A stretch of DNA of 64,000 nt, taken from positions 908,501 through 972,500 of the forward strand of contig NZ_LR134338.1 of assembly GCF_900637055.1 (NCBI RefSeq), in the 5' to 3' direction. The notes below the pieces were generated by a model. It saw nothing but the letters and a program-made list of their open reading frames with translations, did not search any database and had not been told where the DNA came from. Positions 9,006-33,356 of this stretch are shown in pieces (the stretch's first letter is position 1; every line of letters starts with the position of its first letter). Made by a program: the position numbers and the translations under genes. The DNA is from Brevibacillus brevis. Its GTDB lineage: Bacteria > Bacillota > Bacilli > Brevibacillales > Brevibacillaceae.

Positions 9006-9077
9006 AATTACATAATCGAGCGACAATTAGAAAGTCACAATAAATGGTACACATTTTGGGAAGGAGATCGTTCACAC

Positions 9078-10661
9078 ATGGAAACCAATACGGTTCAAAA
9101 GCTTACTGACATTCTTGGAGCTACAAAAGTGTATCATAACTTGCCTGTAGCTAATCTTGTTGAAATGGCAGTGAAGCGTGGCGAAGGGATTTTGACCGAT
9201 AAGGGGGCGCTCAATGCGCTAACAGGGAAGTTTACCGGCCGTTCGCCAAAGGACAAATTTGTGGTGGACGAAGCTTCCGTACACGATAAAATCAACTGGG
9301 GTCCGGTTAACCAACCAATCAGTACTGAAAAATTCCAAGCACTTCAACAAGACGTGCTCCAATACTTACAATCAAAAGATGAACTGTTTGTCTTCGATGG
9401 CTTTGCGGGTGCAGATACAACCTATCGCCTGCCAATCCGCGTAGTGAACGAATTCGCTTGGCATAACCTGTTTGCGCGTCAGCTGTTCATCCGTCCGTCC
9501 GAAGAAGAACTGGCTGCGCACGAATCAGAATTCACGGTTATCTATGCGCCTAATTTCAAAGCCAATCCTGCGGTACACGGAACGAACTCCGAGACTTTCA
9601 TCGTATTGAGCTTTGAGCAAAAGACAGTGTTGATCGGTGGCACTGAGTATGCTGGCGAAATGAAAAAGTCGATCTTCAGCGTAATGAACATGCTGCTTCC
9701 AGAGCGCAACGTACTCTCGATGCACTGCTCTGCGAACGTAGGCAAAGAAGGAGACGTTGCCCTGTTCTTCGGCTTGTCCGGTACAGGAAAAACAACGCTG
9801 TCTGCTGATCCAGACCGTTTCTTGATCGGTGACGATGAGCACGGCTGGTCTGACAATGGCGTGTTCAATATCGAAGGCGGATGCTATGCAAAATGCGTCA
9901 AGCTGTCTGAAGAAGGCGAACCGCAAATCTGGAAAGCCATCCAGTTCGGTACCGTACTTGAAAATGTAGACGTAAACGAAGCGACTCGTGTAGCAGACTA
10001 CGACAGCACCAAATATACAGAGAATACACGCGCTGCGTACCCAGTGGAAGCAATTCCGGGTGCTGTGATTCCAGGCGTGGGCGGGCAACCAAATGTCATC
10101 GTCTTTTTGACAGCCGATTCGTTCGGTGTATTGCCTCCAATCTCCAAGCTGAATAAAGAGCAAGCGATGTACCACTTCCTGTCTGGCTACACCAGCAAAA
10201 TGGCAGGGACAGAGCGTGGCGTAACCGCTCCGCAAACAGAGTTTTCTACTTGCTTCGGATCTCCATTCTTGCCACTGCATCCGGTAGTATATGCGGAAAT
10301 GCTCGGTAAGAAGATTGATGAGCGCAAGGTTCAAGTATACCTGGTGAACACTGGTTGGACTGGTGGCCCAGTAGGTGTTGGGCAACGTATGAAGCTGTCC
10401 TACACACGTGCGATGGTAACAGCAGCATTGAACGGTGAGCTGGAAAAGGTAGACTATGTAGCTGACGAGATTTTCGGGGTACAAGTACCAACTTCTTGCC
10501 CGAACGTTCCCGCTGAAGTTCTTCAACCTCGCAATACATGGGCAAACAAGGAAGATTATGACAAGCAAGCGGCTGATCTGGCTGCACGCTTCATTGAGAA
10601 CTTTGAGAAAAAATTCCCGAATGCAACAGATATTGCGAATGCGGGTCCAAAAGTAAAGTAA
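9078..10661 (+). CDS. pckA: Phosphoenolpyruvate carboxykinase (ATP)
   Basis: PckA converts oxaloacetate and ATP to phosphoenolpyruvate and CO2, the entry step of gluconeogenesis. The 527-residue length is typical. Visible motifs are RSPKDKF (substrate Arg), the kinase-1 P-loop [11 protein letters not shown] (about residues 232-242), the kinase-2 metal site [11 protein letters not shown], and the ATP-specific NTRAAYP and STCFGSPF segments. AAGGAG lies 11 bases before the ATG. It stands alone between terminators, as in other Bacillales. Confidence 0.98.
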
Positions 10662-16951: not shown

Positions 16952-16970
16952 CCCTTGCGCCACAAGGGTT
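16950..16970 (+). terminator. Hairpin at the end of the suf operon
   Basis: AACCCTTG pairs with CAAGGGTT around cgcca. It overlaps the sufB stop, and only a short T run follows. It is a terminator or part of the phage attachment core, or both. Confidence 0.5.
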
Positions 16971-17011
16971 TCCGAGCTTTAAATGTGGGTTTGCCCACAA
17001 TTTGCCCACAA
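16950..17011. other. Probable attL region of the prophage
   Basis: This interval separates the last host gene from a leftward phage integrase. It contains a perfect tandem 11-bp repeat TTTGCCCACAA (16990-17000 and 17001-17011) with a partly inverted TGTGGG copy just before it, the usual look of integrase arm sites, and the AACCCTTG hairpin, which may hold the crossover core. The right junction is beyond the window, so the core cannot be fixed. Confidence 0.55.
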
Positions 17012-17012
17012 T

Positions 17013-18167
17013 TTAGTTCTGGACGTATCGCTCATAAAGAGCGAGAGCATCGTCCTCAATCTTTTTCGTAACATGTAGATACGTGTCCGCTGTGACTTTC
17101 ACGCTTGCGTGCCCAAGTCGCTCGGACACGTATTTTATATTTGCCCCGGCTTCAAGTAAATGGACGGCATGGGTATGTCTGAGGGCGTGAGGCGAGAGAA
17201 CGGGGAGATCGGCTCGCTTACAAATCTCTTTGAAGTAATCCCGGACTACGTTGGTACGGAGCCAGCGCCCGTCATGCTGGTGGAATATAATATTGTCTTT
17301 GGTTGGTTTGTAGTTCTCATACATCAAGCAAACCTCTTTTTGGTTGATCCTGTGGCGCCTTATTAGTTTAAGTGTGATTTCATCTAGCTTGATGGTTCTT
17401 TCACTGTTTTTTGTTTTCGGCGTTGATAAATAGGGCTGCGAATTTAAGGGGTAGACCAAAGTTTTATTAACGGTTAATGTCTTCGCATCAAAGTTAAGGT
17501 CATCCCAGGTCAGTGCAAGCGCTTCTCCGATCCGGAGCCCGGTACGCGCCATAAGCGTGAAAAAAGCGTAGTATTGGATGGAATGTTGGTACTTTGCTTT
17601 TTTTACTGGGGTTTTTACACAGTCAAAAAACTCTTCCAGTTGCTCTCGTGTAAAGTAAGCCACCTTGCTTGACTTATCCGCTTGCTTTGGTATCTTGATC
17701 TTTTGGACAGGATTTTCCCGTAAAATACGAAACTCATGTACAGCGTCAGTCATTGCTGAACTGAATATGCTATGGATTCGTCGGACCGTTCCTTCGCTGT
17801 AATGACCACGTAGTTCGTTGATCCATTTTTGGTATTCATTTCGTGTGATGTCTTTCAGGCGGTATTTTCCCCATCGAGGCAGGATGTTAAGTCGAACATT
17901 CCTTTCCTGGAGAGTAAAAGTGATCGGCTTCAAATTGGGCCTTTTATAAACCTCTAGCCAATCGTCAAAGAAGTTATCTACTCGTTCACTGCCGTTCTCA
18001 GCAAAGCCAAATTGGTTGATCTTTGACTCTTCTTCAGCGGCAGCTATCTGTGCCTCTTTCTTCGTTTTAAATCCTCCCTTTGTTTTCTCTTTATATGTTC
18101 CAGTTTGCCTGTCGGCATATCTAATTCTGTATTCCCATGCTGTCCCACGTTTTCGGAAAGATGCCAT
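17013..18167 (-). CDS. int: Phage tyrosine-type integrase
   Basis: 384 residues. It has an N-terminal AP2-like arm-binding domain (WEYRIRYADRQTGTYKEKTK), a SAM-like core-binding domain (about 65-155) and a C-terminal catalytic domain. The catalytic residues are visible: Arg in ARTGLRIGEAL, a Lys in the beta hairpin around STPKTKNSERTI, His and Arg in SPHALRHTHA, the later His in LGHASVKVT and the nucleophilic Tyr in TYLHV. It integrates and, with a helper, excises the prophage. It converges on sufB and abuts the putative attL, the standard position. Confidence 0.97.
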   Translation of the reverse strand: MASFRKRGTAWEYRIRYADRQTGTYKEKTKGGFKTKKEAQIAAAEEESKINQFGFAENGSERVDNFFDDWLEVYKRPNLKPITFTLQERNVRLNILPRWGKYRLKDITRNEYQKWINELRGHYSEGTVRRIHSIFSSAMTDAVHEFRILRENPVQKIKIPKQADKSSKVAYFTREQLEEFFDCVKTPVKKAKYQHSIQYYAFFTLMARTGLRIGEALALTWDDLNFDAKTLTVNKTLVYPLNSQPYLSTPKTKNSERTIKLDEITLKLIRRHRINQKEVCLMYENYKPTKDNIIFHQHDGRWLRTNVVRDYFKEICKRADLPVLSPHALRHTHAVHLLEAGANIKYVSERLGHASVKVTADTYLHVTKKIEDDALALYERYVQN

Positions 18168-18636: not shown

Positions 18637-19446
18637 TTGTTTACTGGTCAACAGGTTGAAACTATGAAGCAGCATAGTCTTTTTCATACTAAGGGACAGT
18701 TAAGAGAAACAATTGATAACCACCTAAAAAGTATACATGAGAAGTTATCTCCATCTACGCTACGTGTACTTGATGTAATCAGGAAGCGAGCAATGAATGA
18801 ATCCCAAGAAACATTAGGTGTTGCATATCTTCTAATCGAAACGATTTGCAAGATGACGAAGGTAAGTCGCTCAAGTGTAGAAAGAGCAATCAGGAAACTT
18901 GAACAGTTAGATATTCTTAAACGAGTGACAACATCCAGAAAAACAGGACTACAAGGAGCGAACATATTCTATTTTTTACCCTTGAATGACGGGGTTGAGA
19001 TGACGGGGTTGGACAAGCCTGAAACGCCTGAAACATCAAAGGTTGAGGCTCCCAGAAGGGAAACTAATACAGGGGTTTTTAATACTCCAAAAAGACCAAA
19101 AGAAACTAAGAAAAATAACGTAAACGGAACGCACCTCGTGAAAGATAGCTCTGTAATTCCTTCTTACATCCCGAAAGAATTCGCTAAGCTGATCCAGCAA
19201 GGATTTTCATGCGGAAGAGTAATCAAACAGTTCTGGGGCAAGGTGGTGATGTTTAAGCGGGCGACTGGATGGACTCGTAACGAGAACGTGTTACCGATTG
19301 CTGCAGACGCATGGGAATACACCAAGAACGAGTACAAGAGGGATAAAAAAGAGTGGGAGCTTGATCGATTCCTAAAATGTTTTTACGGAACGATGAAGAG
19401 GATCGAAGAGAAAAGAGTTGAAGAGTATACAGCAATTTGGACGTAA
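18637..19446 (+). CDS. Phage winged-helix (HTH_36-like) DNA-binding protein
   Basis: 269 residues. Residues about 35-115 form a winged helix-turn-helix (SPSTLRVLDVIRKRA, then MTKVSRSSVERAIRKLEQLDILKRV as recognition helix and wing), the type found in phage and plasmid replication or control proteins. A polar linker (about 120-170) leads to a basic C-terminal helical domain. The TTG start has GAGGAGGT 6 bases before it. It may be a regulator of the lysogeny region or a replication initiator; I cannot choose. Confidence 0.8.
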   Translation: MFTGQQVETMKQHSLFHTKGQLRETIDNHLKSIHEKLSPSTLRVLDVIRKRAMNESQETLGVAYLLIETICKMTKVSRSSVERAIRKLEQLDILKRVTTSRKTGLQGANIFYFLPLNDGVEMTGLDKPETPETSKVEAPRRETNTGVFNTPKRPKETKKNNVNGTHLVKDSSVIPSYIPKEFAKLIQQGFSCGRVIKQFWGKVVMFKRATGWTRNENVLPIAADAWEYTKNEYKRDKKEWELDRFLKCFYGTMKRIEEKRVEEYTAIWT

Positions 19447-19490
19447 TATTTGAAAAACTTTGTCGATACTATAAAATTTTGTTAAGAAAA

Positions 19491-19499
19491 TGCTATACT
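19491..19499 (+). promoter_or_regulatory. Extended -10 promoter of the receptor leader
   Basis: TGCTATACT is a TG-n extended -10 with no clear -35. Transcription from about 19506 would produce a leader of some 265 nt before the receptor gene. The 19447-19771 gap contains no gene, and its content is given here and in the next two entries. Confidence 0.5.
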
Positions 19500-19501
19500 A
19501 T

Positions 19502-19643
19502 CTTGGTGGAATTTACTTTCGTTAACAAGTAATCTAAAAACTGGTAAAAGTAAAAGCCAACGGGGTGTATACAGTTGGGAGCTGTTTACACTCTTTACCA
19601 CCAAGACTTACCCTTGGTGGCGGGCCGAAGCCGCTTTCCGTTG
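19502..19643 (+). promoter_or_regulatory. Structured leader RNA with alternative stems
   Basis: Three 8-base segments can pair in two exclusive ways: CTTGGTGG (19502-19509), CCACCAAG (19598-19605), CTTGGTGG (19613-19620). Segment 2 can pair with 1, enclosing a GTGTATACAG/CTGTTTACAC hairpin, or with 3 as a tight local hairpin with a 7-base loop. CAACGG (19558-19563) can also pair with CCGTTG (19638-19643), which would enclose the second form as a three-way junction. A small GC hairpin (GCGG/CCGC) follows. This looks like an attenuator or ligand-sensing switch upstream of the receptor gene; the class is unknown to me. Confidence 0.5.
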
Positions 19644-19746
19644 ACATAAACATTATTTTACAGCTTAGAACAGGATACAACAAGTGGCACAAATTCGGTA
19701 TTTAAATTATTTCCTGCCATCCAGACCTTTTGGTGTAAGGCTTTTG

Positions 19747-19764
19747 CTTCTCGAAAAGGAGAAG
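19747..19764 (+). promoter_or_regulatory. Hairpin over the ribosome site of the receptor gene
   Basis: CTTCTC (19747-19752) pairs with GAGAAG (19759-19764), enclosing GAAAAG. The Shine-Dalgarno AAAGGAG is thus split between loop and stem, which would lower initiation at the ATG 19772. Confidence 0.45.
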
Positions 19765-19771
19765 TGAAAAA

Positions 19772-21022
19772 ATGCAAACAGTAGACCGTAAAGATATAGG
19801 CTCGCTGATCAAACGAATGAGAGAAGACAATCATTGGAGCCAAGATTATTTGGCAGAACAATTGATGGTTTCTCGTCAAGCGATAGTAAAAACGGAAAAG
19901 GGCCTTAGCACTCCACGAGCAGAGTTAATCGAAAGAGCATATTTAGCGTTCAAATCTGAGGAACTTGTGTGGAAGTACATGTTAGTTCAAAAAGACAAAA
20001 AGGAATTAATCTATTTGGCAAACATGATGATCAGACACGATAGTAGACTTTCGAGAGGGATTATCAAGCATGTCATTCGTGAGTCACTTTCCAAAGGCGA
20101 CCTTAAAACAGCAGCAGAAAACGTATTTCAAGTAATTTTGTGGGATATAGAGTCTCAGCAGAAAACAAACAAACGTAAAATAGCCTTTGTTATTAGCACC
20201 TTCAAAAATGTTGAGCCTGACCCTGATGAATTCGCTGATCTTCTTCAAAAGTTGTATGACATATCCAAACGAGCAAATAGCTTTGATGCTTTTATAAATA
20301 TATCAGGTGCTATAGCAGGAACCATGAAGCTGGATGATCGAAAAAAATCTCGGCTGCTATATCAAGAAGCAACAGCATATTATTTTCAGGGGAATCACAA
20401 TAAAGCATACAGAATATCGATTAAAGCTCTTGAGATAATGGATCACAGAATTTACCCTCATAGCGCAGATGTATTTCAAAGACACGCACTGATTTGTTCG
20501 CAATTGGATAATCACCATTTTCACCTTGAGGCGATAGAGCACTACACAATTGCAAAAAACATGGCTACACCTGATCAAGCTGTTTATTCACTGGCGCTTG
20601 CTGGCATCGCTAGGTGTTACTACATGTTGGAAAAGTTTGAGGATGCTAAAAAACATTGGAAGGATTTGTTTCAAAAGCTCGGGAAGGATGACCTGATTAG
20701 GGTTCATTCCTTAAATGACATGATTATGATGGAAATAAAACTAGGTGACGTCAATGAAGCGAAACGATTAATAAGGGAGTGCGAACGCCTCCTAGCTATT
20801 GCATTAAAGCAAAAATGGAAGAGGTATAATACGGAATCGCTTCTACTAGAACGCAATAAACAAATGCTTACAGCGTTAGAAAGAGACAAGTACATCACAC
20901 CTGAGATATCACTTTTACTGGCTCAGTTAAAAAAGAGCTATATGCGTGATGAATTCGAACTAACACGAAATTTTATCCATGATAAACTGTTTTCTCCTAG
21001 TACAATAGAATCATTAGGATAA
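19772..21022 (+). CDS. RRNPP-type peptide receptor / XRE-TPR regulator (arbitrium-like candidate)
   Basis: 416 residues. An XRE helix-turn-helix covers about residues 7-62 (IGSLIKRMREDNHWSQDYLAEQ, then the recognition helix VSRQAIVKTEKG). The rest is a long all-helical array with TPR-like repeats, for example LLYQEATAYYFQGNHNKAYRIS (about 190-212), SALICSQ-like and LALAGIARCYYMLEKFEDAKKHW (about 271-293). This HTH-plus-TPR plan and length match quorum-sensing receptors of the RRNPP group (NprR, PlcR, AimR), which bind a short imported peptide. The decisive context is the secreted propeptide gene whose ribosome site overlaps this stop. Its place beside the integrase and repressor genes of a prophage suggests control of lysis-lysogeny. 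Function is inferred. Confidence 0.85.
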   Translation: MQTVDRKDIGSLIKRMREDNHWSQDYLAEQLMVSRQAIVKTEKGLSTPRAELIERAYLAFKSEELVWKYMLVQKDKKELIYLANMMIRHDSRLSRGIIKHVIRESLSKGDLKTAAENVFQVILWDIESQQKTNKRKIAFVISTFKNVEPDPDEFADLLQKLYDISKRANSFDAFINISGAIAGTMKLDDRKKSRLLYQEATAYYFQGNHNKAYRISIKALEIMDHRIYPHSADVFQRHALICSQLDNHHFHLEAIEHYTIAKNMATPDQAVYSLALAGIARCYYMLEKFEDAKKHWKDLFQKLGKDDLIRVHSLNDMIMMEIKLGDVNEAKRLIRECERLLAIALKQKWKRYNTESLLLERNKQMLTALERDKYITPEISLLLAQLKKSYMRDEFELTRNFIHDKLFSPSTIESLG

Positions 21023-21037
21023 AAGGAGGTATTTAGT

Positions 21038-21229
21038 TTGAAAAGAATTCTTTTTGCTACATTTGCTGCTTTAATGATTGGGCTAGTAACACCAAGTACA
21101 GGGGTATTTGCTGGTCCTCCAGAGAATGATAAAGTTGCACCAATTGCAATTGATCATTCTGATGGGGTGGAAAAATTCCCACGGCAAAAACCGCCAATTG
21201 TAGTATATGGTCCGCCTGAGAATGATTAA
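21038..21229 (+). CDS. Secreted signal-peptide precursor with two GPPEND copies
   Basis: 63 residues. A Sec signal (KR at the N-terminus, hydrophobic core about 4-18, then TGVFA) predicts cleavage after Ala25. The exported 38-residue remainder begins with GPPEND (26-31) and ends with GPPEND (58-63), so the same hexapeptide stands at both ends. The two copies differ at two synonymous third positions (21113-21130 and 21209-21226). The TTG start has AAAAGGAGGT 7 bases upstream. A short exported propeptide with a C-terminal mature peptide, directly behind an RRNPP receptor, is the Phr/PapR/NprX/AimP plan. The mature peptide is inferred to be GPPEND or YGPPEND. Confidence 0.85.
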   Translation: MKRILFATFAALMIGLVTPSTGVFAGPPENDKVAPIAIDHSDGVEKFPRQKPPIVVYGPPEND

Positions 21230-21237
21230 TTAAAAAA

Positions 21238-21284
21238 TGTAAACTGACTGGAAAATTTTATAAAATACGCCATAGCAGTTTACA
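21238..21284 (+). repeat. Inverted repeat after the propeptide gene
   Basis: TGTAAACTG (21238-21246) and CAGTTTACA (21276-21284) are perfectly complementary, with an AT-rich centre of 29 bases. It may be an operator for a dimeric regulator such as the upstream receptor, or an RNA hairpin. Confidence 0.45.
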
Positions 21285-21308
21285 GAAAAAAGAATTTGAT
21301 TGGTATAA

Positions 21309-21346
21309 AATAACGGTAGGCAAATAAGCCTGTCGTTATTTTATTG
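21309..21346 (+). terminator. Terminator of the receptor-propeptide transcript
   Basis: AATAACGGTAGGC pairs with GCCTGTCGTTATT (one mismatch), followed by TTATTGTT. Confidence 0.8.
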
Positions 21347-21364
21347 TTATAGGACTGGAAACAG

Positions 21365-21393
21365 TTGCAAATTGTACAAGATACTCATACAAT
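21365..21393 (+). promoter_or_regulatory. Sigma-A promoter for the 43-residue ORF
   Basis: TTGCAA (21365-21370), 17 bases, TACAAT (21388-21393). The spacer contains the palindrome TTGTACAA (21373-21380). A promoter right behind the terminator of the receptor-propeptide unit is where the AimR-activated promoter of aimX lies in arbitrium phages; that role here is inference. Confidence 0.65.
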
Positions 21394-21432
21394 CAAAATA
21401 GAACAAGTGTTCGAACATAGGGGGATTAGTGC

Positions 21433-21564
21433 ATGGAGAATGTAGCGACACAGTCAGACAAGACTAAACTCGAAAAACTCAACTACATAGCAACGGCCTG
21501 TACACCGGAACAGATAAATGAATTATATAAAGCATTTCTGGAATATTCCCAGAAAACGAAATAA
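21433..21564 (+). CDS. Small 43-residue protein of unknown function
   Basis: The ORF starts MENVATQSDK and ends LEYSQKTK. It has no signal peptide and is predicted mostly helical, with an amphipathic C-terminal half (TPEQINELYKAFLEY). GGGGG lies 9 bases before the ATG. It has its own promoter 40 bases upstream and ends in a bidirectional terminator shared with the cI-like gene. It could be a functional microprotein, or the transcript itself may be the active product. Confidence 0.55.
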   Translation: MENVATQSDKTKLEKLNYIATACTPEQINELYKAFLEYSQKTK

Positions 21565-21591
21565 AAAAGCCGCCCGATTAAGGGCGGTTTT
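21565..21591. terminator. Bidirectional terminator
   Basis: AAAAGCCGCCC (21565-21575) pairs with GGGCGGTTTT (21582-21591). It serves the small ORF on the plus strand and the cI-like gene on the minus strand, overlapping the latter's stop. Confidence 0.85.
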
Positions 21592-21931
21592 GTGCTTTTG
21601 TTTGAAGCGTCCACATGGCAAATTCGAGAAACTTATCCTGCTCGCTTGGGTCCATCTTCGCTAAAACCTCATTAAGGGCTTTGCTGCTAGCGATCATGGC
21701 CTCTAAGCCTTTGATTGGTGTTCTATTATCTGTCCTGCCTAACAAATAGTCTGTACTTACGCGAAAAAATTCAGCAAATCCGATAAGCATATCAAATGTG
21801 GGTGTTCTGGTTCCACGCTCATATCCAGAAATAGTTACTTTCCCTACTCCAAAAGTCTCGCCAAGTTCCTCTTGAGACATATCCTTTTCCATTCGTAACG
21901 AACGCAATCTTTCCCCGAAGAGATTATCCAT
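21578..21931 (-). CDS. CI-like XRE repressor
   Basis: 117 residues. The N-terminal HTH (about 3-60) reads FGERLRSLRMEKDMSQEELGETF, then VGKVTISGYERGTRTPTFDML, and is followed by the Xre-typical STDYLLGRTD. The C-terminal 50 residues are a short helical multimerisation region with no LexA-type protease domain, so induction by autocleavage is unlikely. An in-frame GTG at 21943 exists, but AAGGGTGAG fits the ATG at 21931 better. It is divergent from the Cro-like gene over repeated operators, the classical prophage switch. Confidence 0.88.
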   Translation of the reverse strand: MDNLFGERLRSLRMEKDMSQEELGETFGVGKVTISGYERGTRTPTFDMLIGFAEFFRVSTDYLLGRTDNRTPIKGLEAMIASSKALNEVLAKMDPSEQDKFLEFAMWTLQTKAQNRP

Positions 21932-21963
21932 TAGATTACTCACCCTTATATCATCATATCCCT

Positions 21964-22109
21964 ATTTTAATCAATGTGTTAGCGAACTGCAAACAAAAAG
22001 ATTGGCGAATTGATAGATTTATTGTTGACTGTAAGCGATTTGCTAACATATTATAAAAGCACGAAAGCAAAACGCTAACGTAAAGTGAAACAAGATAGCA
22101 AATTGATAA
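21964..22109. promoter_or_regulatory. cI/cro switch: two promoters and four operator copies
   Basis: Leftward promoter: minus-strand TTGCAG (21992-21987), 17 bases, TAAAAT (21969-21964). Rightward promoter: TTGACT (22025-22030), 18 bases, TATTAT (22049-22054). Related operator-like copies are TTAGCGAACTGCAAA (21979-21993), TTGGCGAATTGATAG (22002-22016), AAGCGATTTGCTAA (22033-22046, nearly palindromic) and TAGCAAATTGATAA (22096-22109). Copy 1 overlaps the leftward -35 and copy 3 fills the rightward spacer. Confidence 0.7.
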
Positions 22110-22123
22110 CTGGATGTGATGCT

Positions 22124-22366
22124 ATGCAAAACAGGATTCGAGAGGTTCGAGAGCTGAAAGAAATAAAACTTGAAGCCCTCGCCAAGAAGGTCGAAATTTC
22201 AAAGGCTTATATGTCCCAAATCGAAACTGGGGTACGTGGAAAGAGGATAAGCTATCCTCTTCTGACAAGAATCGCGGTTGCTTTGGAAACTACAGCAGAA
22301 TATTTGATGAATGGTGAAGCAAATGACCAAGGAGCAGAACGTGTCGGTTCCAGAGCAGGGCATTGA
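22124..22366 (+). CDS. Cro-like XRE regulator
   Basis: 80 residues with one HTH: RIREVRELKEIKLEALAKKVEISKAYMSQIETG, recognition helix SKAYMSQIE, then TTAEYLMNG. It is the first gene of the rightward early operon and probably opposes the CI-like repressor. An in-frame GTG at 22085 lacks a ribosome site; the ATG at 22124 has GGATGTG nearby. Its end overlaps the next gene by 44 bases. Confidence 0.75.
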   Translation: MQNRIREVRELKEIKLEALAKKVEISKAYMSQIETGVRGKRISYPLLTRIAVALETTAEYLMNGEANDQGAERVGSRAGH

Positions 22367-22616
22367 ATATGACGATCGGGGGAGGATGCTCTATCACCCT
22401 GAATTCCATCCAAACCAAGGCAAGCGATTCTCAGATGAGGAGACAGCTTATCTTTGCAAATTCTACGAAACAGATACTCTCAAATCTTTATCTCTTGCCC
22501 TTGGCCGCTTAGAAAAGTCACTGGAGGACAGGATTGCATACCTCAAAAAGAAGGCGCTTTTTGATTACTACCGTGCTAAATGGGAGCGCCAAATCAATGC
22601 TTACAGAAGGGAGTGA
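22323..22616 (+). CDS. Phage protein of unknown function (paralogue A)
   Basis: 97 residues. The sequence IEYDDRGRMLYHPEFHPNQG, then YLCKFYETD and SLALGRLEKSLEDRI, closely parallels the protein at 23456. The second half has the length and helix pattern of a small HTH, so DNA binding is possible. GGTGA lies 5 bases before the ATG at 22323; another ATG at 22311 is in frame. Confidence 0.65.
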   Translation: MTKEQNVSVPEQGIEYDDRGRMLYHPEFHPNQGKRFSDEETAYLCKFYETDTLKSLSLALGRLEKSLEDRIAYLKKKALFDYYRAKWERQINAYRRE

Positions 22617-31439: not shown

Positions 31440-33356
31440 ATGCAGGAAATTGCAGTTGATAATTTCGCGGGTGGCGGCGGGGCAAGTGTGGGCATGGAAC
31501 TTGCGTTCGGACGCTCTGTAGATATAGCAATCAATCATGATCCAGCAGCCATTGCCATGCATCTGGCAAACCACCCTGAGACAGAACATTACTGCGAGTC
31601 AGTTTGGGACGTTGACCCACGTGAAGTTACACGGGGGCGCCCTGTGGGGCTTTGTTGGTTGAGTCCAGACTGTAAGCATTTCAGTAAAGCAAAGGGCGGT
31701 AAGCCGAAAGAGAAAGGAATCCGAGGTTTGGCATGGGTGGCCCTACGTTGGGCGGCAACGGTAAGACCCCGGGTAATCATGCTGGAGAACGTTGAAGAGT
31801 TTAAGACGTGGGGGCCGTTGTTAAAAGACGGTATGCCAGACCCGAAAAACAAAGGCCGCGAGTTCAATGCTTTCATCAATGCGCTAAAACGTCAAGGATA
31901 CCAGGTTGACCACAGAGAGTTGCGGGCATGCGACTACGGCGCGCCAACGATTAGGAAACGCTTCTTTCTGATTGCTCGGTGCGATGGACGCCCGATTGTA
32001 TGGCCGGAACCGACTCACGGAGATCCAGAGAGTGCAGAAGTCAAATCTGGAAAGCTACTGCCCTGGCGGACCGCAGCGGAGATCATTGATTGGTCGTTGC
32101 CATGCCCGTCCATTTTTGAACGGAGAAAGCCTCTGGCAGAGAATACATTGCGTCGGATCGCACGTGGAATCCAGCGTTTTGTGATTAATAACCCGAGTCC
32201 CTTTATCGTAAAGGTCAATCATCAGGGAGAGCAATTCCGTGGGCAACAGATCAGCGAGCCGATGCAGACCATTACAGCAAAAAACGGGTGGGGTGTTGTT
32301 ACTCCTTTTATCGCTCGTATTGGACAGACCGGGTTTGGCGGTGATCGTATGCAGTATGAAGTGGAAGAACCACTTACGACAATTACAACAAAAGCTGAAC
32401 ATTTACTCGTGACGCCAGTATTGGGGGTCAATACATCAGGGCATCCAGGAAGCTCGGTAGATGAGCCTCTTAGAACAGTCACCACAGGCGGTCACCATAT
32501 GCTAATTAGTCCAGCACTCATCCAGATGGGATACGGAGAGCGGGAAGGTCAACAGCCTCGCGTGCTTGATATTGCAAAACCAATCGGAACGATAACAGCA
32601 GGTGGAAATAAATTTGGTCTGGCGACGGCAGAATTAATCGCAGTTCCCCACATTACTAAGTTTCGCACTGGGGCAACAGGCCATGGAGTAGATGAACCAT
32701 TACACACAGTTACCTCTGGTGCAGGTAGCAAACGACCAGCAGGAGCAGCTCACGCGATGGGAATGGTCACTGCTTTTCTATCCCGACAGTTTGGACAATC
32801 GGTAGGACATGCTGCCGATGTGCCGGCTGGGACGATAACAGCCAGCGGCGGCGGAAAGTCTGCACTTGTAACGAGTCATCTTGTGAAGATGCGTGGGACA
32901 AACATCGGACATCCAGCCACCGAACCGTTGCAGACAATTACAGCAGGCGGGAACCACTTTGGGGAGGTCAGAGCTTTTTTGATGGCCTACTATGGCAGCA
33001 GCGTTGGGCAGAAGGCAGACGAACCATTAGGTACAGTAACGACCCGGGACCGATTCGGATTGGTGACCATTCACGGACAAGATTATCAGATAGTCGACAT
33101 CGGTATGCGTATGCTGGAGCCACACGAATTGTTCGCCGCCCAAGGCTTCCCTAACACATACATTATTGATCGTGACGCAGACGGCAAGTTGTATCCTAAA
33201 TCAGCACAAGTGGCACGGTGCGGAAACTCTGTTCCACCACCTTTTGCGGAAGCGCTAGTTAGAGCCAACTTGCCCGAATTATGCACCGGATCGGGAAATT
33301 CATTGGCGTTTGAGAGATACAAGCAGCAAGAGGGTCAGTTGCAAATGTCTATGTGA
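31440..33356 (+). CDS. C5 cytosine DNA methyltransferase with eight tandem repeats
   Basis: 638 residues. Motif I DNFAGGGGASVGME, motif IV WLSPDCKHFS (catalytic Cys), motif VI MLENVEEF, motif VIII RKRFFLIARC; late motifs HELFAAQGFP and VARCGNSVPPPFAEAL (IX and X). Between about residues 270 and 555 lies an array of eight units, each with an xEPxxTxT core (EPMQTITA, EPLTTITT, EPLRTVTT, KPIGTITA, EPLHTVTS, VPAGTITA, EPLQTITA, EPLGTVTT), at the place of the target recognition domain. No restriction enzyme is seen, so it is likely an orphan protective methylase. GGGGGAG precedes the ATG. Confidence 0.93.
   Translation: MQEIAVDNFAGGGGASVGMELAFGRSVDIAINHDPAAIAMHLANHPETEHYCESVWDVDPREVTRGRPVGLCWLSPDCKHFSKAKGGKPKEKGIRGLAWVALRWAATVRPRVIMLENVEEFKTWGPLLKDGMPDPKNKGREFNAFINALKRQGYQVDHRELRACDYGAPTIRKRFFLIARCDGRPIVWPEPTHGDPESAEVKSGKLLPWRTAAEIIDWSLPCPSIFERRKPLAENTLRRIARGIQRFVINNPSPFIVKVNHQGEQFRGQQISEPMQTITAKNGWGVVTPFIARIGQTGFGGDRMQYEVEEPLTTITTKAEHLLVTPVLGVNTSGHPGSSVDEPLRTVTTGGHHMLISPALIQMGYGEREGQQPRVLDIAKPIGTITAGGNKFGLATAELIAVPHITKFRTGATGHGVDEPLHTVTSGAGSKRPAGAAHAMGMVTAFLSRQFGQSVGHAADVPAGTITASGGGKSALVTSHLVKMRGTNIGHPATEPLQTITAGGNHFGEVRAFLMAYYGSSVGQKADEPLGTVTTRDRFGLVTIHGQDYQIVDIGMRMLEPHELFAAQGFPNTYIIDRDADGKLYPKSAQVARCGNSVPPPFAEALVRANLPELCTGSGNSLAFERYKQQEGQLQMSM

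Follow-up and report, generated by a model that had tools for sequence, protein, structure and literature searches.

The window analysed here, a 64-kb stretch of DNA (G000:C1:908501-972500) from the 6.73-Mb genome of Brevibacillus brevis, carries a prophage locus in which a receptor gene is directly followed by a gene for a small propeptide that contains the hexapeptide GPPEND twice. This pair is almost certainly a pheromone and its receptor. Judged from its sequence surroundings, it probably also acts as a peptide-communication switch between lysogeny and lysis that resembles arbitrium. The initial annotation had proposed an RRNPP-type receptor-pheromone pair in a prophage, and this proposal is strongly supported by the domain matches of the receptor and by a linked propeptide in 15 of the 15 loci compared.

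The receptor and its propeptide

The receptor gene (19772-21022, plus strand) has an ATG start and encodes 416 amino acids. Residues 13-54 matched Pfam HTH_3, a helix-turn-helix (HTH) domain, above the cut-off (E 6e-8), and a match with TPR_12, a tetratricopeptide repeat (TPR) domain, lay 0.1 bit below it (E 6e-7; 30.0 bits, cut-off 30.1). In PDB searches, NprR was matched by the single sequence with E values of 0.002 (5dbk) and 0.004 (4gpk), and by the profile with 1.4e-6. The 60 of 117 PDB matches listed include no RRNPP receptor of known structure nearer than NprR; designed TPR proteins and one HTH protein outscored NprR among these. These matches bear out the XRE-type HTH plus TPR-like receptor read from the sequence earlier, and an N-terminal HTH combined with a TPR domain is what membership in the RRNPP(A) superfamily of peptide receptors calls for. 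The NprR-NprX system likewise consists of an HTH plus TPR receptor with a linked propeptide; it is chromosomal and not a phage switch, and the alignment of the present receptor with NprR spans the TPR part alone.

The propeptide gene (21038-21229, plus strand) starts with TTG and encodes 63 amino acids. Its Shine-Dalgarno sequence, AAAGGAGG (21022-21029, plus strand), shares one base with the receptor stop codon TAA (21020-21022). The product shows a basic start, a hydrophobic stretch and then VFA/GPPEND...YGPPEND, with the signal peptide judged by eye, so that the exported-type propeptide of 63 residues with a ribosome site overlapping the receptor stop was found as described in the initial annotation. 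The twofold GPPEND goes beyond that description, which had named the peptide once. Copy 1 (21113-21130, plus strand) directly follows the predicted signal-peptidase site, and copy 2 (21209-21226, plus strand) forms the C-terminus. A repeat of this length arose in none of 20,000 shuffles of the mature part, and DNA encoding GPPEND occurs at just two places in the genome, both in the propeptide gene. A further match of the GPPEND pattern in the genus (G010) was attributed to chance, because the reversed control pattern also matches once there.

Duplicates, which were identical across both genes where compared, were set aside, and the comparison covered the remaining 15 distinct loci with readable DNA. 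They include nine core loci (the window, L002, L004, L005, L006, L008, L009, L012 and L015), three loci with more distant HTH receptors (L013, L024 and L001) and three loci (L026, L028 and L029, in G036, G035 and G034) whose receptors gave a Pfam TPR match and no HTH match, and are thus Rap-like. A small propeptide with an export signal, as judged by eye, lies directly behind the receptor in all 15, as is typical of RRNPP(A) pairs. Absence of a linked propeptide from homologous loci had been set beforehand as the finding that would speak against the pair, and it was not encountered. The count is based on receptors with DNA, whereas P0001-P0004 and P0008 are known as proteins; for P0002, P0003 and P0004, propeptide matches were found on contigs as long as the receptors' own, and there were none for P0001 and P0008.

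Relatives of the receptor were found in viral contigs (three by single sequence and five by alignment), in two genome contigs and as eight proteins; a viral-contig search with P0008 returned no relative. Among 29 plasmid records, 20 of which were listed, one matched the receptor over its full length and 19 matched only residues 9-48. Of the 26 genomes of the genus, five contained the receptor at E 1e-5. At E 1e-20, eight of the 39 genomes from the order had it; a search of 398 genomes of the class, with four candidates scored per genome, recovered just these eight, which belong to two genera. The named organisms among the full-length matches are Brevibacillus species. The 50,697 phage records searched contained no match with the receptor (tblastn, E 0.01) and none with the propeptide. 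The peptide of the plasmid receptor, GPVEPNVAK (L025 in G035; L001 is the named plasmid copy), closely resembles GPVEPDVIK, which belongs to the HTH-less receptor L028 of the same genome; eavesdropping or mimicry is a possible explanation of this likeness.

Peptide codes and their cassettes

A search with a profile of ten propeptides returned 18 proteins that have no functional names; seven were rows of the query and 11 were new. In all 18 the code is repeated with copy 2 at the C-terminus, a figure to be read with the preference of a two-copy profile for two-copy propeptides; among the 15 loci, two matched copies occur in ten. The codes were GPPEND (five proteins), GPPEW (four), GPPDGW (two), GPPDGWG (two), GPPEGNG (two), and GPPDG, GPPEGGG and GPPIHP (one each), and in the GPPDG propeptide the second copy is without the W. 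P0022 keeps GPPEND in an otherwise different propeptide, and its contig has the same length (3373) as that of receptor P0003 (52% identity). The match P0017 is filed under Bacillus thuringiensis on a contig of 2.8 kb.

Codon differences were counted in six pairs from four code groups, of which three EW-group pairs are not independent of each other. Pheromone codons showed 14 synonymous and no nonsynonymous differences in 68 comparisons, as against 23 and 36 in 125 comparisons for linker codons (Fisher p 2.7e-5); the signal part showed 19 and 11 in 151. The two copies within one gene differ at the DNA level in 10 of 10 two-copy loci. The pheromone part of the twin code is, as these codons indicate, under purifying selection.

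Since related phages carry matching pairs with different codes, private peptide signals are likely exchanged among them. The same genome holds a second prophage-like locus (L032, G000:C1:1243000-1262000) with the same layout, the code GPPDGW and the other of two types of cI-like repressor, and G018 also holds two systems, GPPEW and GPPIHP. In the genus, five genomes carry the receptor, and none of them has the same code twice.

The window was also aligned with prophages of other codes. In six of six comparisons, nucleotide similarity ended at the receptor start (19771-19780) and returned behind the propeptide, at 21227-21236 in five and at 21329 in one (L015). Within the receptor there were a few short matches, and one of 128 bases (73%) crossed the receptor end in L016. 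In L014, which shares the code of the window, similarity ran through the receptor up to 21372 and was gone before the small open reading frame (ORF) that precedes the cI gene. These boundaries indicate that the codes travel as receptor-pheromone cassettes.

The region behind the propeptide and the proposed switch

Behind the propeptide lies an inverted repeat, the putative operator of the receptor, with its left arm TGTAAACTG at 21238-21246 (plus strand) and its right arm at 21276-21284 (minus strand), separated by 29 bp. The right arm occupies the would-be -35 position of a candidate promoter, whose extended -10-like element TGGTATAAA (21301-21309, plus strand) was read in the alignment by consensus resemblance only. 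The window contains two exact copies of TGTAAACTG, both in this repeat. The repeat was found in 9 of 9 core loci with spacers of 29-31 bp and arms TGTAAACTG, TGTAAAGTG or TGTAAAGCG, the 9-bp arms being perfect in six and having one mismatch in three, and L001 has the arms TGTCAAACG and TGCCAAACG with 31 bp between them. In a shuffle test from which L005 and L015 were left out, equally long perfect arms arose in 4-17 of 1000 shuffles at five loci with 9-bp arms and in 34-134 of 1000 at three loci with 7-bp arms. HTH identity was 41-53% in the 14 receptor pairs with different arms and 61-69% in the 16 pairs with the same arm, all of the latter between different codes; the TPR identity ranges of these groups overlap (39-47% and 41-56%). 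When the right arm and the hairpin behind it were used as a DNA query, three viral contigs and four places in 3 of the 26 genomes were found, each a known receptor locus, and neither set yielded a locus without a receptor.

This terminator-like hairpin (21305-21344, plus strand) has a folding energy of -19.1 kcal/mol (z -5.64) and shows compensatory changes between loci. A transcript from about 21316, the start predicted from TGGTATAAA, retains a hairpin remnant of -6.3 kcal/mol. From these folding energies, the receptor transcript would end at the hairpin and a transcript from the TGGTATAAA start would escape it. An Rfam match of Yfr11 over 21238-21347 (29.4 bits, cut-off 44) was taken as chance.

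A promoter-like sequence, TTGCAA-17-TACAAT (21365-21393, plus strand; a consensus match), and a LexA box, AGAACAAGTGTTCG (21400-21413, plus strand), follow the hairpin. The LexA motif is shared with the region upstream of lexA in this genome and was found in 9 of 9 core loci with a varying centre, as would be expected at the promoter of a LexA-controlled antirepressor. Behind it, an ORF of 43 codons (21433-21564, plus strand), recognised as an ORF and by comparison, takes the place of aimX and is a candidate antirepressor. Two types of small ORF lie between hairpin and cI, type A with 43 and type B with 51 codons, and they are paired with two types of cI, a pairing that is indirect evidence for a small protein that may inactivate cI. 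For type B, the ratio of nonsynonymous to synonymous rates (dN/dS) was 0.43 over 47 codons in seven loci, which is mild evidence that it is coding. In the 26 genomes, both types occurred at receptor loci only. L013, L024 and L001 have ORFs of comparable size and place that are weakly similar to types A and B, with the best similarity between L034 (the L024 locus) and L001. A mimicry of the C-terminal cI tail by the small ORF was considered and rejected, as cognate pairs (p 0.29, 0.21, 0.14 and 0.40) did not exceed shuffles; one non-cognate pair reached p 0.026.

END receptors occur with small ORFs of type A (the window) and type B (L014), and EW receptors likewise with A (L017) and B (L016 and L002). 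The sequences indicate that across these mosaic prophages the receptor carries its own repeat-arm variant and cI carries its own small ORF. This accompaniment argues against the alternative that the repeat, the hairpin and the small ORF serve another regulator, or just end the receptor transcript, while the receptor acts elsewhere. Such an arrangement would fit promoter elements that are consensus matches alone and are no commoner than in shuffles (11 promoter-like sites in 19300-22500, against 9.1), as well as the lack of a repeat in L013 and L024 described below; taken together, we consider it rather improbable.

The cI-like repressor (21578-21943, minus strand) has 121 amino acids, and Pfam found in it an HTH and no S24 peptidase domain. 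Among the four cI proteins scanned, all four gave only HTH-type matches of note and none gave an S24 match, as would be expected of a repressor without a self-cleavage domain that is disabled by an antirepressor. Four S24 matches occur in the genome, each at a distance of more than 400 kb from both receptors. With no S24 in cI and no such match within that distance, induction by SOS likely takes another path; a LexA-controlled antirepressor of the Gifsy kind fits a cI that is apparently non-cleavable. At the GPPIHP locus (L033, 11240-11360), only the end of a cI gene seems to remain and the small ORF is open, as read by eye.

The gene order is integrase (17013-18167, minus strand), receptor, propeptide, cI-like gene and a cro-like HTH gene (22121-22366, plus strand; library match). 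The integrase is of the tyrosine type (Pfam Phage_integrase E 4e-32; phrog_1 E 4e-89), and the gene matches thus corroborate the earlier placement of the pair between the integrase and a cI/cro-like switch. This setting bears on whether the pair is instead a quorum system that steers host genes, such as those for sporulation or competence, with little role in lysis and lysogeny. Prophage Rap-Phr systems have been proposed to steer host genes (PMC10075063), and three HTH-less relatives exist, of which the two with listed neighbourhoods have no phage-like gene by eye. The present receptor, however, possesses an HTH; its place in the window, L032 and L034 is between the genes for a phage recombinase and cI, and in L033 it precedes the cI remnant; no sporulation or competence regulator was seen among the window neighbours scanned; and a dedicated repeat adjoins the small ORF and cI. 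Control of host genes is therefore highly improbable as the main function. The propeptides of the HTH-less loci end in AGPVEPDVIKHDK or a close variant and lie near a small Cys-rich ORF.

Based on the anatomy downstream of the propeptide, with a long-spacer inverted repeat, a LexA box and a small ORF beside cI, a role of the pair in lysis-lysogeny control through the small ORF and cI appears likely, and the following scheme was hypothesised. The propeptide would be exported, and signal peptidase and other proteases would release both GPPEND copies, the one at its front and the one at its end. Cells would take the peptide up again, and it would bind the TPR domain of the receptor. In its peptide-free form, the receptor would sit as a dimer on both TGTAAACTG arms, which are 29 bp apart, and increase expression of the 43-codon ORF at the level of transcription; the product of this ORF would disable the adjacent, apparently non-cleavable cI. 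The peptide-bound receptor would leave the DNA, and lysogeny would follow. The pair may also measure prior infections, as the initial annotation had proposed. DNA damage would induce the same ORF independently, as the promoter-like site with a LexA box before it suggests. We infer export, binding, activation, antirepression and the sign of the switch from sequence comparison; that the peptide-free receptor is the activator is tentative, with slightly more doubt than confidence.

The sign could also be the opposite, in that the peptide-bound receptor is active, as in NprR and PlcR, and accumulated peptide promotes the small ORF and induction. As noted above, the PDB matches listed contain no RRNPP receptor of known structure closer than NprR, and the pheromone activates in most RRNPP members (PMC11343458). 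The long-spacer repeat downstream of the propeptide, on the other hand, is the layout of AimR, from which the peptide releases the receptor (PMC6458997), and the opposite sign is considered unlikely, if worth keeping in view.

Several observations weigh against the proposed switch or narrow its reach. At E 1e-5, 21 of the 26 genomes of the genus are without the receptor, and 5 of the 15 loci have no repeated code. Because equally long arms arise in 4-17 of 1000 shuffles, the repeat of a single locus is weak evidence. A search for perfect arms of at least 6 bp gave no inverted repeat in L013 and L024, a weak one being visible by eye in L024, and the same search found nothing in the positive control phi3T, in which an arrangement GTTC-25-GAAC is readable. 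All receptor pairs with different arms include the END group, so that the correlation between arms and HTH is not independent of phylogeny. The predicted start of the receptor-driven promoter lies inside the hairpin. No LexA box was found behind the receptor in any of L013, L024 and L001, the spacer of the SOS promoter in L004 is 16 bases short, and L013 seems by eye to keep just the end of the cI gene. The leader RNA motif described next is also absent from L013, L024 and L001.

The 5' leader of the receptor gene contains a conserved structured RNA (19555-19645, plus strand) with a closing stem and three hairpins (z -2.95). It could be folded in the nine core loci with 94% of the cells paired. 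Of its 28 pairs, seven are changed on both sides, all in helix 2; the covariation score exceeded all 500 shuffles, and the number of further pair types did not (365 of 500). In an Rfam scan at E 5, no family reached its cut-off. A search of 398 genomes under strict filters found the motif only at the six core receptor loci, one to one. The leader may regulate the receptor as a riboregulator. A separate hairpin (19742-19769, plus strand; -13.3 kcal/mol, z -2.29) encloses most of the Shine-Dalgarno sequence of the receptor. The sequence CTGTTTACA at 19582-19590 was rejected as an upstream operator, since it forms part of a leader-RNA hairpin and just three of the nine core loci have kept it.

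The prophage is about 51.8 kb long and contains terminase, portal and tail-sheath genes. It is bounded by exact 19-bp repeats, CCTTGCGCCACAAGGGTTT, the left of which (16953-16971) lies directly behind an ORF named SufB-like by eye and has its copy at genome position 977281. The window holds two exact GAACNNNNGTTC sites, against 1.08 expected, the second of them at 31497-31508 near the start of a prophage ORF of 638 amino acids (31440-33356). Beside the recombinase of L033, an ORF for 28 hydrophobic residues (9021-9107; MEVYQALALMISF...) with a terminator-like repeat behind it resembles a type I toxin locus.

Relation to known systems

Arbitrium of phi3T and SPbeta is the closest parallel in organisation, with a phage receptor, an exported propeptide, a long-spacer inverted repeat and a small gene behind it; for phi3T, the gene order was read from the phage record. 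In SPbeta, the DNA site of AimR lies downstream of aimP and consists of two 6-bp arms with 25 bp between them (PMC6458997), and all nine core loci have a long-spacer inverted repeat between the propeptide and the next gene. Unlike arbitrium, the present system has a twin GPPxx peptide, 9-bp arms with a spacer of 29-31 bp, a small ORF that has a LexA box and a short cI next to it, and a structured leader RNA, and its receptor showed no sequence similarity with AimR. Known arbitrium modules also lie between cI and Cro (PMC6669507), so the location alone is not new.

The same gene order leads to the question of whether this is a very divergent true AimR-AimP system, all the more as AimR sequences evolve fast (PMC12700828). 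At maximum sensitivity, however, the receptor profile reported none of the four AimR proteins compared, all of the SPbeta group; HHalign gave a probability of 0.5% with the AimR of phi3T; AimR was absent and NprR present among the 60 of 117 PDB matches listed; and the phage records gave no tblastn match. Homology with AimR was thus not detected at the sequence and profile level, and we give a divergent AimR system little credence. The earlier remark that GPPEND does not resemble the known AimP type is likewise supported as far as the 50,697 phage records and the four SPbeta-group AimR proteins reach. In PMC9765229, AimR appears in the reference list only.

The RRNPP cluster 8 or DPG-peptide systems have been reported from phages, plasmids and chromosomes of Paenibacillaceae (PMC10075063 and PMC12700828) and share the bacterial family and HTH-TPR receptors with the present pair. 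Peptides of subfamily 08 and of AimR have the motif DPG (PMC12700828), which none of the 18 propeptides found here contains. The pair on pBRLA33 of B. laterosporus, whose propeptide ends in SDYDPGY, is inferred to be a cluster 8 pair because of this motif; its receptor aligns with ours in the HTH only (E 0.002), and BLASTP gave E 2.1, which is not the similarity expected within the cluster. Two identical pheromone copies are known from Phr105 and other multi-copy RRNPP propeptides (PMC11343458 and PMC9765709), and duplicate pheromones as such are accordingly not new; the difference from Phr105 is that copy 1 here stands directly at the predicted signal-peptidase site. Gifsy prophages have small antirepressors under LexA control and a repressor that is not cleaved, with the antirepressor gene outside the immunity region (PMC3121763). 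The small protein under LexA control and the uncleaved repressor are common to both; in the present system, antirepression is only predicted, and a putative site for a peptide receptor is added. No Brevibacillus GPP system was found in the literature consulted; the pair lists of PMC10075063 may include some of these loci.

These comparisons suggest that the pair likely represents a new RRNPP subfamily with a putative arbitrium-like mode of action, distinct from AimR by the sequence tests made. Brevibacillus phages may even have evolved a second arbitrium independently, starting from a different RRNPP lineage. Its GPPxx codes would come in twin copies on cassettes that can be swapped, its operator would have a long spacer like that of AimR, the receptor mRNA would carry a structured leader RNA of a new kind, and phage quorum and host SOS would meet in one small antirepressor. 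We put this reading forward tentatively and hold it just short of evenly balanced.

Most of what is known about peptide communication in phages comes from AimR. A receptor in which the tests made found no sequence kinship with AimR, in the same layout and with at least six codes, would offer a separate way to test which components arbitrium requires. Since the codes lie on cassettes and two of the five genomes of the genus that carry the receptor hold two systems with different codes, orthogonality can be tested directly. If the hypothesis is true, one promoter would be enough to test how phage quorum and DNA damage interact, with a repeat linked to the pheromone and a LexA box meeting at one small gene next to a cI that is apparently non-cleavable.

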